A stretch of 5,315 bases of DNA from the NCBI GenBank assembly GCA_030620115.1, contig JAUXFG010000223.1, positions 1-5,315 on the forward strand, written 5' to 3'. The notes under the pieces are model-generated. The model worked only from the letters and a program-made list of their open reading frames with translations. It had not been told where the DNA came from and ran no database searches. The DNA comes from Candidatus Fermentibacterota bacterium (GTDB lineage: Bacteria; JAFGKV01). Made by a program: the position numbers and the translations under genes. Of the stretch, positions 1 to 5,230 are shown one piece after another (the first letter of the stretch is position 1; every line of letters begins with the position of its first letter).

Positions 1-1961
1 AAACCAAGAAGGCCATCAATGAGCACATCCCTGGGGAAGTTGAGCTCCTCCAGGATACTGGTGGGGATGGTGAACCAATAGCTCGTGGTGTGCATCTGAT
101 TCTCTGGAAGCTCCACCTCCCCGGACCCCACGTTCTCCAGCGTGTGGAACTTGATCTTCTTGAAACCCACCACCTGTGTGGTCACAAGCACTTCGCCCTG
201 CTCTACCTTGACGTCACGGATGCTGCGGTTGGCGAAGGATTCCAGGATGCGCACCTTGGTGTAGCTTATGGCGTCGGTGAAGTAATCGATGGTGACACGG
301 GAGATATATGCCCGGCGCTCGTGGTAGTCGAGCTCATCGACGTAGTACTGCTCGCCTCCGTGAAGATAGATAGCCTTCTCATGGATCAGCATTGGTGCAC
401 TGCTGAAGTCGACCTCTCCGATGACCCGGCTCTTCTGCCCGGTTCGATCCACTACCACGAAGTTATCGGAGGATACGGACCGGAGGCTCATGTGATCCGC
501 AGGGTAGTTGTCAGAGGTCCAATGCCACTTGCCTCCGCTTTGGCGCACGACCTGTTCCTCCTGCAGGAAGGCAAGCATTTCCTGGGTAGGCGTGTCTCCG
601 AGTTGCTCCTCCTCTTCAAAGGGGAGCTCGAATGCGGCGCATTTTATGTGTGACAATAAGATCAGGAGATTGTTCGGGTCGATGTAACAGTGCTCAGGCG
701 AGCCTCCGAAGAAGTAGCCGGGGTTTTGTATGATGAATTGGTCGAGTGGCGATGAGGATGCAACCAGGAGCGCCCCGGAGAGCCCCGATCCTCGTCCTGC
801 CCGGCCGGCTTGCTGCCATGTGGAAGTGATGGTGCCCGGGTAGCCCGCCATGATGCACATATCGAGACTACCGATATCGATGCCCAATTCCAAGGCATTG
901 GTGGAGACCACACCCACGATGGATCCTTCTCGCAATCCCTTCTCGATCCCCCGGCGTTCCTTTGGCAGATAACCCCCACGGTAGCCCCGGACGAGGCCGT
1001 GGTGAGCCGGTGTTTTTTCCACGCGTTGCTTGATCTCCGAGAGGAGCACTTCGGTATTGACCCGGCTCCTGGCGAATACGATGGTCATGATCTCGCTGTT
1101 CATGAATCGGCTGGCGAAGCCCACCACTTCCGGGAGATAAGAACGACGAATGCCCAGTTGAGGGTCGATCACCGGAGGGTTGTAGAAGGCGATGATCTTC
1201 TCACCTTTGGGAGCGCCATTCTGATCGATGAGATCCACCGGAGCGCCGGTGATTCGCTCAGCCAGCTCCTGTGGGTTCGCGATGGTGGCGGATGACAGGA
1301 TGAATTGGGGGGATGAACCGTAGAACCGGGCGATCCGCATGAGCCGTCGGAGAACATTCGCCACATGGCTGCCGAACACCCCACGGTATGCATGGAGCTC
1401 ATCTATGATCACGTAACGGAGATTCCGGAAAAGCCCCATCCATTTGGTGTGGTGGGGGAGGATGCCGGCATGAAGCATGTCAGGATTGGTTACCACGATG
1501 TGTGCCTTGTTGCGTACCGCGCGCCGCACATCCCCCGGAGTGTCGCCGTCGTACGTGTACGCCCGGAAGGAAGCTTCTACGTGGGGCATCAGTTCCTGAA
1601 GCTCCGTCACCTGGTCCTGGCCCAGGGCCTTGGTAGGGAAGAGGTAGATTGCTCTGGTGGAGGGATCTTTTAGGATGGCGTCAATCACCGGAAGGTTATA
1701 GCAGAGCGTCTTACCTGAAGCCGTAGGCGTGGTCACCACCACATTTCGCCCCCCGCTCACCGCGGCGTAGGCTTCTGCTTGATGAACGTATGGTGTTTCT
1801 ATTCCACGCTCCTGATATGCCTGGCGGAGCTCAGGAGAGAGGGCTTCGGGCCATGGGGCAAACTGGGCTTCCTTGGCGGGAAGATGCTGCCATGCGGTGA
1901 AGTTTTCGGACAGGAAGCCCTTATGCAGACTGTGAAGGACCTGATCAATGCTATTGTTCAT
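1..1961 (-). CDS. MrfA/YprA-type DEAD/DEAH-box helicase, 3' end outside window
   Basis: This is a superfamily 2 ATP-dependent DNA helicase of the YprA/MrfA type (relatives of fungal Hrq1), a family tied to repair of DNA damage such as mitomycin lesions in Bacillus. I read 653 uninterrupted codons from ATG 1961 to the window edge. Visible motifs: Q-like TPYVHQAEA (56-64), Walker A TPTASGKT (78-85), Ia FPTKALGQDQ (108-117), Ib TNPDML (158-163), DELH (187-190), SSAT (223-226), IV TIVFARSR (293-300), V STNALELGIDIG (353-364) and VI QQAGRAGR (383-390). Both RecA-like lobes are therefore complete. Family members are about 750 residues, so roughly the last 100, where the DUF1998 zinc-binding cysteines should lie, are missing only because the window ends. 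The start is chosen because AAGGA lies 7 nt upstream, an in-frame TGA follows shortly 5' of it, and no other ATG lies between. The helicase family is certain; orthology to mrfA is likely but unproven. Confidence 0.93.
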   Translation of the reverse strand, partial: MNNSIDQVLHSLHKGFLSENFTAWQHLPAKEAQFAPWPEALSPELRQAYQERGIETPYVHQAEAYAAVSGGRNVVVTTPTASGKTLCYNLPVIDAILKDPSTRAIYLFPTKALGQDQVTELQELMPHVEASFRAYTYDGDTPGDVRRAVRNKAHIVVTNPDMLHAGILPHHTKWMGLFRNLRYVIIDELHAYRGVFGSHVANVLRRLMRIARFYGSSPQFILSSATIANPQELAERITGAPVDLIDQNGAPKGEKIIAFYNPPVIDPQLGIRRSYLPEVVGFASRFMNSEIMTIVFARSRVNTEVLLSEIKQRVEKTPAHHGLVRGYRGGYLPKERRGIEKGLREGSIVGVVSTNALELGIDIGSLDMCIMAGYPGTITSTWQQAGRAGRGSGLSGALLVASSSPLDQFIIQNPGYFFGGSPEHCYIDPNNLLILLSHIKCAAFELPFEEEEQLGDTPTQEMLAFLQEEQVVRQSGGKWHWTSDNYPADHMSLRSVSSDNFVVVDRTGQKSRVIGEVDFSSAPMLIHEKAIYLHGGEQYYVDELDYHERRAYISRVTIDYFTDAISYTKVRILESFANRSIRDVKVEQGEVLVTTQVVGFKKIKFHTLENVGSGEVELPENQMHTTSYWFTIPTSILEELNFPRDVLIDGLLG

Positions 1962-2056: not shown

Positions 2057-2332
2057 GTGACGGATAAGGACTATAGGCTTCTTCCGAGCGAAGTCTCGGA
2101 AGAAGAAACATCAAACATCCAGATTCTCGCGACTGATGGCCATGTGATCATTTCTCAATTCGATGCCGATTCCGATGAAGTCGTCTTTCTCCGTCTCTCT
2201 TCGCACCAAATAGCATATGTGCTTCACCGATATGAACATCGAACATCCAATCCGCCAGCTGGCGGAAACACCGAAGTAGGAGAAATCCCCCTCAATCCCC
2301 CTTTGCGAAAGCTGACTATTGGACACACATGA
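2057..2332 (+). CDS. Possible small hypothetical protein, 3' end altered by repeats and the IS
   Basis: I do not recognise this 91-codon reading frame, which starts at GTG and is divergent from the helicase. Residues about 20-59 look protein-like: an alternating hydrophobic stretch (IQILATDGHVIISQF, then EVVFLRLS) and a helix-like SSHQIAYVLHRY. This resembles small bacterial proteins with a beta strand plus a C-terminal helix. From about residue 60 the codons lie in dispersed repeats: GAACATCGA, the TCCGCC/GGCGGA palindrome and the CCCCCTTTGC palindrome. The last six residues and the TGA are supplied by the IS terminal repeat. Removing the IS and one target copy would give an 88-codon frame ending at TAG 4702-4704. 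There is no clear Shine-Dalgarno site and a strong hairpin lies in the first 20 codons. It may be a degraded gene or chance; no function is assigned. Confidence 0.33.
   Translation: MTDKDYRLLPSEVSEEETSNIQILATDGHVIISQFDADSDEVVFLRLSSHQIAYVLHRYEHRTSNPPAGGNTEVGEIPLNPPLRKLTIGHT
2078..2105. repeat. Perfect 11-bp inverted repeat (strong hairpin)
   Basis: CTTCTTCCGAG (2078-2088) and CTCGGAAGAAG (2095-2105) are exact reverse complements around a 6-nt loop. No T run follows on either strand, so a classical intrinsic terminator is not supported. It lies upstream of the helicase on the minus strand and within the first codons of the possible small gene on the plus strand. Confidence 0.6.
2251..2266. repeat. 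16-bp perfect palindrome TCCGCCAGCTGGCGGA
   Basis: This self-complementary GC-rich word follows two adjoining GAACATC words (2234-2247). Such words look like dispersed extragenic repeats rather than coding sequence. Copy number cannot be judged from this window. Confidence 0.55.
2301..2311. repeat. Left target-site duplication of the IS
   Basis: CTTTGCGAAAG directly abuts the CTG end of the IS. The copy at 4682-4692 differs at one of 11 positions (CTTTGCAAAAG). IS4-family elements duplicate roughly 9-12 bp of target, so the length fits. The duplicated word is itself nearly palindromic. Confidence 0.7.
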
Positions 2333-2341
2333 CACCGGGGG
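2312..2341 (+). repeat. Left terminal inverted repeat of the IS
   Basis: Thirty bases starting CTGAC and ending in a G run, matching the reverse complement of 4652-4681 except at repeat positions 4, 6, 7, 9 and 18. Position 18 is A here, giving ATGACA where the right end has TTGACA. Confidence 0.85.
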
Positions 2342-2342
2342 G

Positions 2343-4628
2343 TTAAGGGCCGGCAGGCATCCTGCTTGTGAGAAGAATATACATCGCTTTCATGTCTCCC
2401 AACCGCTGCAGGCCGCGCCAGAGCCTTGTCGGGCCTGGCTCACCATCGCTTTTCCGGCCTAAGAAGCCCCCGAGGGAAGCAACCATGCGAGTAACTGTGC
2501 GAAGCTCGGGAGGCTCTGCGGGAATGGCTTCTCTCTTGAAAACATGTAGCGCTTTCCACTCTTCCTCTTCGAATACCTTTGTGCACGGCACGTCGGGTGT
2601 CTCACGGCTCAGTTTGGTCAGATAGAGTACACGCCAAGCAATCACCATATCTATTGCCAAACACGCCTTGAGCCGATCGGCATCGTTCAATCGCCGGTCT
2701 TGTATCCGACATCCACTCTTCAACGTGCGATGATAGTCTTCTATGCCCCACCGCGTACTATACCAATCTAATCGTTCAATCGCCTCTGCAAAGCATGATA
2801 CTTCTATCGTCGTCAAAAGCATCCATTCCACAGAATTCTTTACATCCGATGGACAATCCACCTCTCGCGCATATACAGCCCATACTCCTATCGGCGACAA
2901 ATCTTTCCCTTGAGGAGGCTTTAATGTTACACCCGCAAAGCGTACCTCCAGTTTCGCATCTCGCGCCGGACGACGTCCCTTGCGAGGAATATGGAGTATC
3001 CTATGCCCCCGAACATCCTCCTTCTCCATCTTCTCCCAAAGCTTCTCTTCCCCAACCTTCCGATTCCGCGTCCGCTCTGCTCGTACCAACAATTCCGGAC
3101 TCGTCGGATCATCCACCCGCTCATGGAATAACTCGTATATGTCCGCTTCTCGATCCCCTACGCTCACCAACTTCGTTCTCGGACAAAGCCGTTGTATTTC
3201 CCTCACTGCCCTATGGCTGTTCAGCCATTTCATGCTCTCTTTCTCTTCTATCGGTAACTTGCTCCGTCGTTCCTTCTTCCCTCTATCGTTTGGATCTCGA
3301 GCCCAACACTGTACATCAAGCAGTCCCAGCGGCGTCCCCTCTGGGGTAAACGCCATCGTGTCATGAAGGATCAAGCCGGTCTTGGTACTCCTCTTCGTGT
3401 TGATTGGTCCAAGATTCTTTGTCCCTGGATGCGCCGTGTAATCCAACGTGCTGCTGTCTTGCACCGCCAATACTAACTCGTGCTCGTTGATCCGATCCGT
3501 TGTCGATTCTACATGCGGTTTCAGCAGCGTCTGCATGTCTACCTGCTTGTTACAAAAAAACCGATACGCCGCCTTCGTCTTTGCTTCTGATCCATTACAC
3601 GCCTGTGGTACAAGTTCCCCTGACTGTGCATGGAAATCTCTCGCCAACGTGAACAACCGTCTCCTTAATCGATTATCGTAAATGTCTACCCTGCCAAACT
3701 CCTCTTCCGCCCAATCCGATGCGCCTATCGGTCGAGGCTTCTCCCCCAACCGCAACTCCGGTTCTCTGCATAGTTCCGCCTGCCAATGCTTCGCTAACGG
3801 ATACAGATATATGTCCTTCTTACTCCCGCCTCCTTCCTCTTCTCCCTCTCCTCCCCTCCGCCCTGAACTCCTCCCTATATGTTCCCAATTCGCTGCTCGA
3901 TAACTCGTCCCTCTATATCGTTTCGGATCTACAAACGTCTCCAACAACAACGGCCTATATCCATAACGCTCCTCCCAATCCCCACAGAGTCGCTTCGTAC
4001 TTCGACTCAATACATATGAGCCCAGGTTTGGTACCTCTACCCCAGGAACTATCAGAAACCGGCTGTTTGACACCACCTTCCTTAAGTTTGCTATCCGGGC
4101 TCTCTCACTCCACCCTATCCTCTTGTCTCGATCCTTCATATGCCAGACCGCTGAACTGAAACTCAATCCTCCCAACCAACCATACTCTGAACTCCTTATC
4201 AAATACCGTATCTGGTTCCCACAGAGCGGCCCCCCTCCCAAATAATGATACCTCTCCATCAATCCATTCCATATCTCCGACGCCTTGCTGTAACGGCTCC
4301 CCACTGGCTCGATTTCTACGTCCCCCAGTTCTCCCAAACTACAGCGTACCTCTGATAATTCAGGTATTTCTCTCCTTGCTTTCAGGGTCTCTCGCTGAAA
4401 CGCATACTCCTCCGTCGTCCTCGGCAGTTCCACCAATCCCCGTCGCTCCAACTCCAAAAGCGCCTTCCGGCAACTCATCTCCTGAAGCTTCCCATTCGGT
4501 GCCCGCCATCCCATCCACTCACATACCTGCCGAGACAACCTGCACCGAGATAGCGAGGAATCCTGCTCCATTGCCGCTCGGATCTTGCCAATCACGTCAG
4601 AATCGAATTCTTTCCCACATACTCTCAT
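2343..4628 (-). CDS. DUF4338 (DruA-like)-Tn5-type transposase fusion
   Basis: This is an IS4-family cut-and-paste transposase of 761 residues, against about 476 for the Tn5/IS50 enzyme. Residues 1-70 look like a winged-helix region (CGKEF to RRGLVELP). Residues about 95-290 match my memory of DUF4338/DruA: YHYLGGGPLCG (127-137), GWLGGLSFSSAVWHM (150-164), LGSYVLSRS (202-210), ETFVDPKRYRGTSYRAANW (230-248) and IYLYPLAKHW (273-282). A Gly/Glu linker (257-271) interrupts its end. Residues about 305-761 are nearly a whole Tn5-like enzyme: DNA-binding part SDWAEEEFGRVDIYDNR (304-320), then AYRFF. Catalytic D391 (QDSS), D492 (VGDREADIYE) and E630 follow, with Y623-R626-E630-K637 exactly matching Y(2)R(3)E(6)K. 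The D492-E630 spacing of 138 equals that of Tn5 D188-E326. The GGFLGRKSDGEPG tail (720-732) is also Tn5-like. Frequent AGG/AGA/CGA arginine codons in the N-terminal half differ from the helicase. The start at 4628 keeps the conserved N-terminus. Confidence 0.93.
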   Translation of the reverse strand: MRVCGKEFDSDVIGKIRAAMEQDSSLSRCRLSRQVCEWMGWRAPNGKLQEMSCRKALLELERRGLVELPRTTEEYAFQRETLKARREIPELSEVRCSLGELGDVEIEPVGSRYSKASEIWNGLMERYHYLGGGPLCGNQIRYLIRSSEYGWLGGLSFSSAVWHMKDRDKRIGWSERARIANLRKVVSNSRFLIVPGVEVPNLGSYVLSRSTKRLCGDWEERYGYRPLLLETFVDPKRYRGTSYRAANWEHIGRSSGRRGGEGEEEGGGSKKDIYLYPLAKHWQAELCREPELRLGEKPRPIGASDWAEEEFGRVDIYDNRLRRRLFTLARDFHAQSGELVPQACNGSEAKTKAAYRFFCNKQVDMQTLLKPHVESTTDRINEHELVLAVQDSSTLDYTAHPGTKNLGPINTKRSTKTGLILHDTMAFTPEGTPLGLLDVQCWARDPNDRGKKERRSKLPIEEKESMKWLNSHRAVREIQRLCPRTKLVSVGDREADIYELFHERVDDPTSPELLVRAERTRNRKVGEEKLWEKMEKEDVRGHRILHIPRKGRRPARDAKLEVRFAGVTLKPPQGKDLSPIGVWAVYAREVDCPSDVKNSVEWMLLTTIEVSCFAEAIERLDWYSTRWGIEDYHRTLKSGCRIQDRRLNDADRLKACLAIDMVIAWRVLYLTKLSRETPDVPCTKVFEEEEWKALHVFKREAIPAEPPELRTVTRMVASLGGFLGRKSDGEPGPTRLWRGLQRLGDMKAMYILLTSRMPAGP
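3534..3545 (-). promoter_or_regulatory. Possible internal start (M365) with AGG-type ribosome binding site
   Basis: The coding strand reads AGG (3543-3545), then five bases (TAGAC), then ATG (3536-3534). Starting here would give 397 residues that retain D391, D492 and E630 but lack DUF4338 and the DNA-binding part. IS50 makes an N-terminally shortened inhibitor from an internal start, so the idea has precedent, but the site is weak. Confidence 0.2.
3554..3560 (-). other. T7 homopolymer, possible slippage site in the transposase gene
   Basis: On the coding strand seven T encode F357-F358 and the first base of C359, at the end of the Tn5-like DNA-binding region. One extra U would give TTG then TAA. 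One fewer U would give four codons (V, T, S, R) and then TAG. Either event would stop the protein before the catalytic core. The homopolymer and frames are observed; slippage is inference. Confidence 0.35.
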
Positions 4629-4635
4629 GCCCCCC

Positions 4636-4664
4636 TATGTACACTCACACACCCCCGGTGTCAA
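4636..4664 (-). promoter_or_regulatory. Transposase promoter within and next to the right IS end
   Basis: The minus strand carries a perfect -35 TTGACA (4664-4659), a 17-bp spacer, and a weak -10 TACATA (4641-4636). The -35 lies inside the right terminal repeat. The -10 ends 7 bases before ATG 4628, so transcription would begin about at the start codon and the message would be leaderless. The G run just before ATG sits too close to work well as a ribosome binding site. Transposase binding to the end would cover the -35, suggesting autoregulation (inference). Confidence 0.5.
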
Positions 4665-4681
4665 GTGTGTCCGAGTGACAG
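4652..4681 (-). repeat. Right terminal inverted repeat of the IS
   Basis: Read from the element's outer edge it begins CTGTCACTCGGACACACTT and ends in GGGGG. It contains the TTGACA promoter box that the left repeat lacks by one base. Confidence 0.85.
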
Positions 4682-4692
4682 CTTTGCAAAAG
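4682..4692. repeat. Right target-site duplication of the IS
   Basis: CTTTGCAAAAG immediately follows the CAG end of the IS and repeats 2301-2311 with one A/G difference. Confidence 0.7.
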
Positions 4693-4746
4693 GGGGAGGA
4701 ATAGATATCGAACGCGAACATCGAGCAATTTGCAATAAGGAGTAAT

Positions 4747-5129: not shown

Positions 5130-5182
5130 CTCCAGAGATGCGATATTTGTGGTTGGGGGATTGAACATCGAAGGTTTGGGGA

Positions 5183-5222
5183 AGCTGATGAGCTGATGAG
5201 CTGATAAGTTGTTGAGCTGATG
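5183..5222 (+). repeat. Five-unit tandem array of AGCTGATG
   Basis: Units in order: AGCTGATG, AGCTGATG, AGCTGATA, AGTTGTTG, AGCTGATG. Units 1, 2 and 5 are identical, unit 3 has one change and unit 4 two. An 8-bp period is not a multiple of three and the array is outside any credible gene. Confidence 0.8.
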
Positions 5223-5230
5223 AGCAGGAA

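Follow-up and report, generated by a model that had tools for sequence, protein, structure and literature searches.

A phage Mu Mom-like DruA domain fused to the transposase of a Tn5-type insertion sequence

The window analysed here, a 5,315-nucleotide stretch of DNA from a Candidatus Fermentibacterota bacterium, contains a transposase gene whose product carries a DUF4338 (DruA) domain in its N-terminal half. Although the defence system to which DUF4338/DruA belongs is known, no function has so far, to our knowledge, been assigned to the domain. The gene lies on the reverse strand at positions 2343-4628 and encodes 761 amino acids in a single uninterrupted frame, which a first-pass annotation had read as a DUF4338 domain joined to a Tn5-type transposase. 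Both assignments were borne out by profile searches, a kind of check which that annotation had proposed, with the absence of a DUF4338 match to count against it. Pfam DruA (PF14236) matched residues 60-257 (E 2.9e-29; 102.6 bits, cut-off 27), and the NCBIfam IS4 family transposase model matched residues 353-748 (E 8e-125, 417 bits against a cut-off of 160). The protein begins with a winged-helix-like domain (residues about 1-66; positions 4431-4628), with AlphaFold2 (AF2) helices at residues 10-22, 28-39 and 50-62 modelled at high pLDDT, followed by the DruA domain (residues about 95-290; 3759-4346), the transposase DNA-binding domain (residues 305-363; 3540-3716; PF14706, E 7.7e-17), the DDE catalytic core (residues 364-661; 2646-3539) and the Tn5 dimerisation domain (residues 662-743; 2400-2645; PF02281, E 5.5e-20), all encoded on the reverse strand. 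The catalytic residues D391, D492 and E630 and the YREK signature (623/626/630/637) had been named correctly at first reading, and D391, D492, E630, Y623, R626 and K637 show no variation among 32 aligned relatives, the majority of which have the layout of the window protein. Structure prediction covered both halves; the full 761-residue model has a pLDDT of 88.4 and a pTM of 0.71, and its transposase half resembles Tn5 transposase complex structures, with a TM-score to the target of about 0.8 (0.82 for 1mus). A segment that matches the winged-helix-like domain adjoins DruA in IS66-borne forms as well.

The gene is the only one in a complete insertion sequence (IS) of 2370 bp (positions 2312-4681, reverse strand), which is delimited by terminal inverted repeats (TIRs) and a target duplication. 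The 30-nt TIRs, at 2312-2341 (forward strand, gene 3' side) and 4652-4681 (reverse strand, gene 5' side), open with CTGACTATTGGACACACATGACAC at one end and CTGTCACTCGGACACACTTGACAC at the other, and their starts, CTGACTATTGG and CTGTCACTCGG, are like IS50-type ends. They are flanked by an 11-bp target duplication with one mismatch, CTTTGCGAAAG at 2301-2311 and CTTTGCAAAAG at 4682-4692. Correcting an earlier extent, the 46-nt inverted repeat consists on each side of the 30-nt TIR and 16 nt of a host palindrome within which the IS has inserted, the left half (TCCCCCTTTGCnAAAGGGGGA) lying at 2296-2311 and the right half at 4682-4697. Intact copies of this palindrome, TCCCCCTTTNNNAAAGGGGGA, occur 32 times elsewhere in the source genome and the reversed control pattern not at all, and these palindromes are a REP-like family used as an IS target. 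The CTG... TIRs and the duplication, within the 9-11 bp range, are those of the Tn5/IS50 group of the IS4 family, and the element is a Tn5-type IS of that group with a winged helix-turn-helix-GNAT module at the N-terminus of its transposase. A related fusion (52% identity) is present ten times in one complete chromosome (G346); clear ends were obtained for nine of the copies, of the same form as those of the window element and with duplications of 9-10 bp, and at seven of the nine the insertion splits a hairpin such as CCCCCTCTCCCGATTTTCGGGAGAGGGGG, of which 19 intact copies remain. Outside the IS, the window also carries a DEAD helicase gene with an HRQ1-type winged helix (MrfA/YprA-like; 3-1961, reverse strand), truncated at the contig end, and a short 8-bp tandem-like repeat, GAGCTGAT, in four copies of varying likeness (5182-5225).

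One 2024 study calls DUF4338 a GNAT domain in passing (PMC10853773). The AF2 model of residues 1-290, built from 82 sequences, has a pLDDT of 93.4 and a pTM of 0.86 and shows a winged-helix-like part followed by a GNAT fold. When this model was compared with solved structures by VIA-align, the first-ranked match was Mom of phage Mu (8bv8), a methylcarbamoylase (Z 15.1, 170 residues, rmsd 3.7), with other GNATs following from Z 13.1 downwards. Foldseek alone placed ordinary GNATs, not Mom, at the top, and against a viral library it returned NAT/GNAT-like and endonuclease-annotated proteins, with no named Mom among the 50 matches listed. An hhalign comparison of 82 DruA domains with nine Mom sequences gave a probability of 96.6% (E 6.8e-10) and a score of 72.6, against at most 21.8 for 60 column-shuffled decoys, and the match stayed (3.6e-10) when Mu Mom and the Mom of a viral contig (L091) were left out. 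Single IS-borne DruA domains matched Pfam Mom (PF25680) at E-values of 1.2e-5 and 0.001, with up to 25.5 bits and thus below the cut-off of 27.1; the window protein itself gave no match to this profile at E up to 1, and the DruA profile gave none among PDB sequences (hmmsearch). Judged from these profiles and the predicted structure, the IS-borne DruA domain is homologous to phage Mu Mom and has the same fold and a Mom-type site. In the viral contig just mentioned, three GNAT-type genes stand in a row (L091:3923-6709), encoding a DruA with a Mom-like site, a Mom and a DruA1-like protein, and the DruA gene directly abuts the Mom gene (PF25680, 1e-41).

The site residues of Mom (231-aa numbering) align with the window protein as H48-H128, Y49-Y129, R101-R190, N111-N201, S114-S204, D139-D234, Y149-Y243, A151-A245, N153-N247 and G158-G252. 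With D139 set aside, the nine remaining residues are all found in the window protein, and the corresponding set (H, Y, R, N, S/T, Y, A, N, G) is conserved in all nine Mom sequences, so that in aligned sequence the putative active site is identical with that of Mom. Across 82 DruA sequences, H128, R190, E230 and Y243 never vary, N247 is kept in 81, S204 is replaced by T in four and is S in the other 78, and the position equivalent to Mom D139 holds D or E in 75 and is hence not invariant. S204 aligns with Mom S114, which is alanine in the sequence of 8bv8, an entry titled 'inactive mutant S124A'; the two numberings would then be offset by ten, S124A corresponding to S114. E230 is a DruA-specific residue, and the chemistry could accordingly be other than that of Mom.

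The first reading, that a DruA-like domain is Druantia-like, holds for the Pfam family, which is shared, and fails for the active site, which is that of Mom and is nearly all lost in Druantia DruA. The Druantia set comprised seven DruA1-type proteins, one (L160) encoded beside DruE1 and a PD-(D/E)XK nuclease and others beside HerA or NurA genes. In these proteins position 128 is W, 129 is S, 188 is A or L, 190 is mostly V, 201 mostly L, 204 mostly G and 245 R. The window element has no DruB-E neighbourhood, being one gene bounded by TIRs, and the PADLOC DruA1 model matched its protein at E 0.015 over 50 residues only. Druantia and transposon-borne DruA are nevertheless homologous (hhalign 97.9%, 6e-13) and not the unrelated families that the first-pass annotation had named as the outcome against it, and they fall on opposite sides of one very long branch with 99% support. 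A direct profile match between Druantia DruA and Mom was absent (0.8%), which makes the IS-borne DruA the bridge between them. A tree rooted with Mom puts Druantia DruA within the DruA set, as neighbour to phage DruA, a placement that is weak (91/69) and carries a long-branch warning; the trees agree with the suggested recruitment of defence DruA from mobile elements, which that same placement and branch keep from being more than a possibility. As Mom, IS-borne DruA and phage DruA have the same site, its loss in Druantia DruA is probably derived. At four loci (L162, L163, L165 and L166, from G318, G173, G161 and G013) the neighbours of DruA1-type genes are HerA-like and/or NurA-like genes, and no DruE was seen in the vicinity; DruA, HerA and NurA may there form a defence module that is separate from type I Druantia.

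A scan of species genomes with the DruA domain found at least 569 relatives, of which the best 80 loci, the majority from metagenome-assembled genomes, were examined and came from many bacterial phyla and one archaeon. Among these 80 were about 30 fusions of the window type from many phyla, mostly of 740-800 aa where complete, and the earlier suspicion that such fusions sit unremarked in databases was thus right; at other loci DruA is encoded on its own, by a gene for about 285-300 aa next to that of a transposase. The partners are transposases of six kinds by Pfam, the names IS701, ISAs1 and IS1380 being our reading of the Pfam domains: Tn5/IS4 (PF14706, PF02281), IS66 (PF03050; fused in the opposite domain order in L067 and L074), ISAs1-type DDE_Tnp_1/DDE_Tnp_1_assoc (fused in L039, L066, L185 and L187, adjacent in L170 and L180), IS701-type DDE_5 (fused in L004, from the window's own genome, adjacent in L173), IS1380-type (L038) and UPF0236-type (L065). 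The source genome alone has DruA in four places with three transposase families; at one of its loci (L001, G000:C29) a second Tn5-type DruA fusion has a 673-aa frame without the C-terminal part, the latter being encoded in a different frame at the edge of the contig, as in a decayed copy. Searches of plasmids by tblastn with the whole protein aligned IS4-type transposases to the transposase half only, with no place covering 80% of the query, and the DruA domain as query found only Candidatus Thiodictyon; the same domain matched nothing in the phage collection. The Candidatus Thiodictyon protein (L097:2908-4242) bears DruA and is annotated merely as an 'ISAs1 family transposase', which illustrates how the module goes unremarked. 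A DruA match should be read with caution, being often part of a transposon: in a survey spread over the taxonomic domain, PF14236 was present in 23 of 386 genomes, of which at least 12 were transposase-linked by our reading, as against 8 of defence type and 3 assigned to neither.

In the DruA tree, 38 Tn5-type rows cluster with a support of 94, excluding the two-gene forms L043 and L045/L046/L051, which are placed separately among IS66-borne DruA; this is consistent with one main origin of the Tn5-type fusions. Eight partner groups need 11 changes on the tree, where the minimum is 7 and the shuffled mean 36; several exchanges of the module between transposases have thus probably taken place. 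Pairwise dN/dS in the GNAT part is 0.06-0.22, similar to the transposase part where measurable, and indicates that the module is maintained by purifying selection. The many loci in metagenome-assembled genomes might raise the fear that the fusion is dead or is an artefact of assembly or annotation; given about 30 independent cases of it, the ten copies that a single complete chromosome holds and dN/dS well under 1, the probability of this is negligible and it can for practical purposes be set aside.

The first-pass annotation had supposed that DruA may give the element its choice of target, and a related explanation is that the module recognizes DNA without catalysis, for target choice or for binding the element's ends. 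The N-terminal winged helix would suit such a role, as would the insertions in mid-palindrome, which were seen at seven of nine sites of the multicopy IS described above and in most of the DruA-bearing Tn5-type elements with usable ends. These ends came from automated end-finding, which yielded a small sample of 15 Tn5-type elements with DruA and 10 without; a simple symmetry score proved too rigid for off-centre duplications and was replaced by a stem score, chosen after the first result had been seen. By this score, insertion had occurred in significant stems in 10 of 15 elements with DruA and in 4 of 10 without (Fisher p 0.24). Tn5-type IS without DruA on plasmids (L214, L218, L220, L005) likewise lie in terminator-like or other hairpins, and ISRm22, of the IS4 family, targets REP palindromes (PMC1525189). 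Because hairpin insertion also occurs in elements without DruA, the domain does not explain the targeting, and target choice by DruA was rejected as unsupported. The transposase, moreover, already has a DNA-binding domain, and the putative catalytic residues of the module are invariant; recognition without catalysis is accordingly an unlikely role.

The conserved Mom-type site points to catalysis, and modification of DNA bases by the module is proposed. Mom itself modifies adenine at N6 with acyl-CoA and gives protection to Mu DNA (PMC7824862; PMC6483171). By its family, catalytic residues, ends, duplications and multiple copies, the transposase half would act by cut-and-paste in the manner of Tn5. 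The GNAT half would bind acyl-CoA and modify nucleobases, probably adenine, in the DNA of the transposition complex, the candidate substrates being the target and, from the element itself, its ends or its copy. The benefit may be that intermediates or new copies are shielded from host nucleases, as Mom shields Mu DNA, or possibly that further transposition is regulated. The fold, the homology with Mom, the conservation of the site, purifying selection and the repeated association with DDE transposases were observed here; the cofactor, DNA as the substrate, the chemistry and the benefit to the element are what we infer. A search of the open-access literature found no report of activity, cofactor binding or a modified base for any IS-borne DruA, and no paper joining DruA, Druantia and a transposase. 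We put the probability that the Mom-like GNAT module modifies DNA during transposition at about 0.5.

GNATs act on proteins and small molecules too. The module might therefore acetylate a protein, such as the transposase or a host factor, or a substrate such as tRNA, with a role in regulation or as an addiction or toxin function; most GNATs act on protein or small-molecule amines, many of the PDB neighbours are such enzymes, and the fusion places the enzyme next to a protein substrate. Its nearest solved structure and profile, however, is Mom, a DNA enzyme; it has the site residues of Mom and, where the CoA loop motif of GNATs usually stands, a Mom-like NxxS, and one module serves unrelated transposase families and stand-alone genes, all of which leaves acetylation of a protein or tRNA on the unlikely side, though worth keeping in mind. 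Homology with both Druantia DruA and the anti-restriction enzyme Mom could also mean that the module is anti-restriction or Druantia-like defence cargo that guards host or element against foreign DNA. The element encodes no DruB-E and no partner nuclease or helicase, the site of Druantia DruA differs, and the module's covalent attachment to the transposase speaks for a part in transposition instead, so that we regard defence cargo as improbable. Modification of DNA during transposition thus remains the preferred reading, and an extension of it is offered more tentatively, as somewhat less probable than not: that, in a broad class of bacterial IS drawn from six or more transposase families, a Mom-type enzyme for DNA hypermodification is fused to the transposase or coupled with it and puts a chemical mark on transposon or target DNA during transposition, Druantia DruA being a derived branch with a changed site. 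Tied to Mom by fold, profile and site, the IS-borne DruA offers an assayable hypothesis with residues to mutate, and its likeness to Mom gives a testable idea of the function of the DruA family. If the reading is true, base modification became covalently coupled to transposition in many transposase families, whether by origin or by spread, which would add a new layer to the biology of IS.

Among known systems, the module is closest to phage Mu Mom, with which it shares the predicted GNAT fold (its best structural match), the HY, R, NxxS, Y-x-A-x-N and G positions, a significant profile match and encoding by a transposing element; it differs in having 15% identity, a window protein under the Pfam Mom cut-off, a DruA-specific RDxxIGW loop and E230, a winged helix at the N-terminus and a transposase that is either fused to it or encoded in an adjacent gene. 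Type I Druantia DruA (PF14236, PADLOC DruA1) is alike in Pfam family, profile match, RD..IGW, Y243 and G256, whereas its Mom-type site residues are replaced (W, S, A, V, G), the protein is longer, it sits with DruE and a nuclease or with HerA/NurA genes, and it is set apart by a long, strongly supported branch. The transposase of IS50/Tn5 (IS4 family) has the same DNA-binding domain, DDE core with YREK and dimerisation domain, CTGACT-type ends and 9-11 bp duplications, but no DruA module, and is 27% identical in the structure alignment. ISRm22, compared by its description only, also inserts in repeated palindromes, with DruA absent from that description (PMC1525189).
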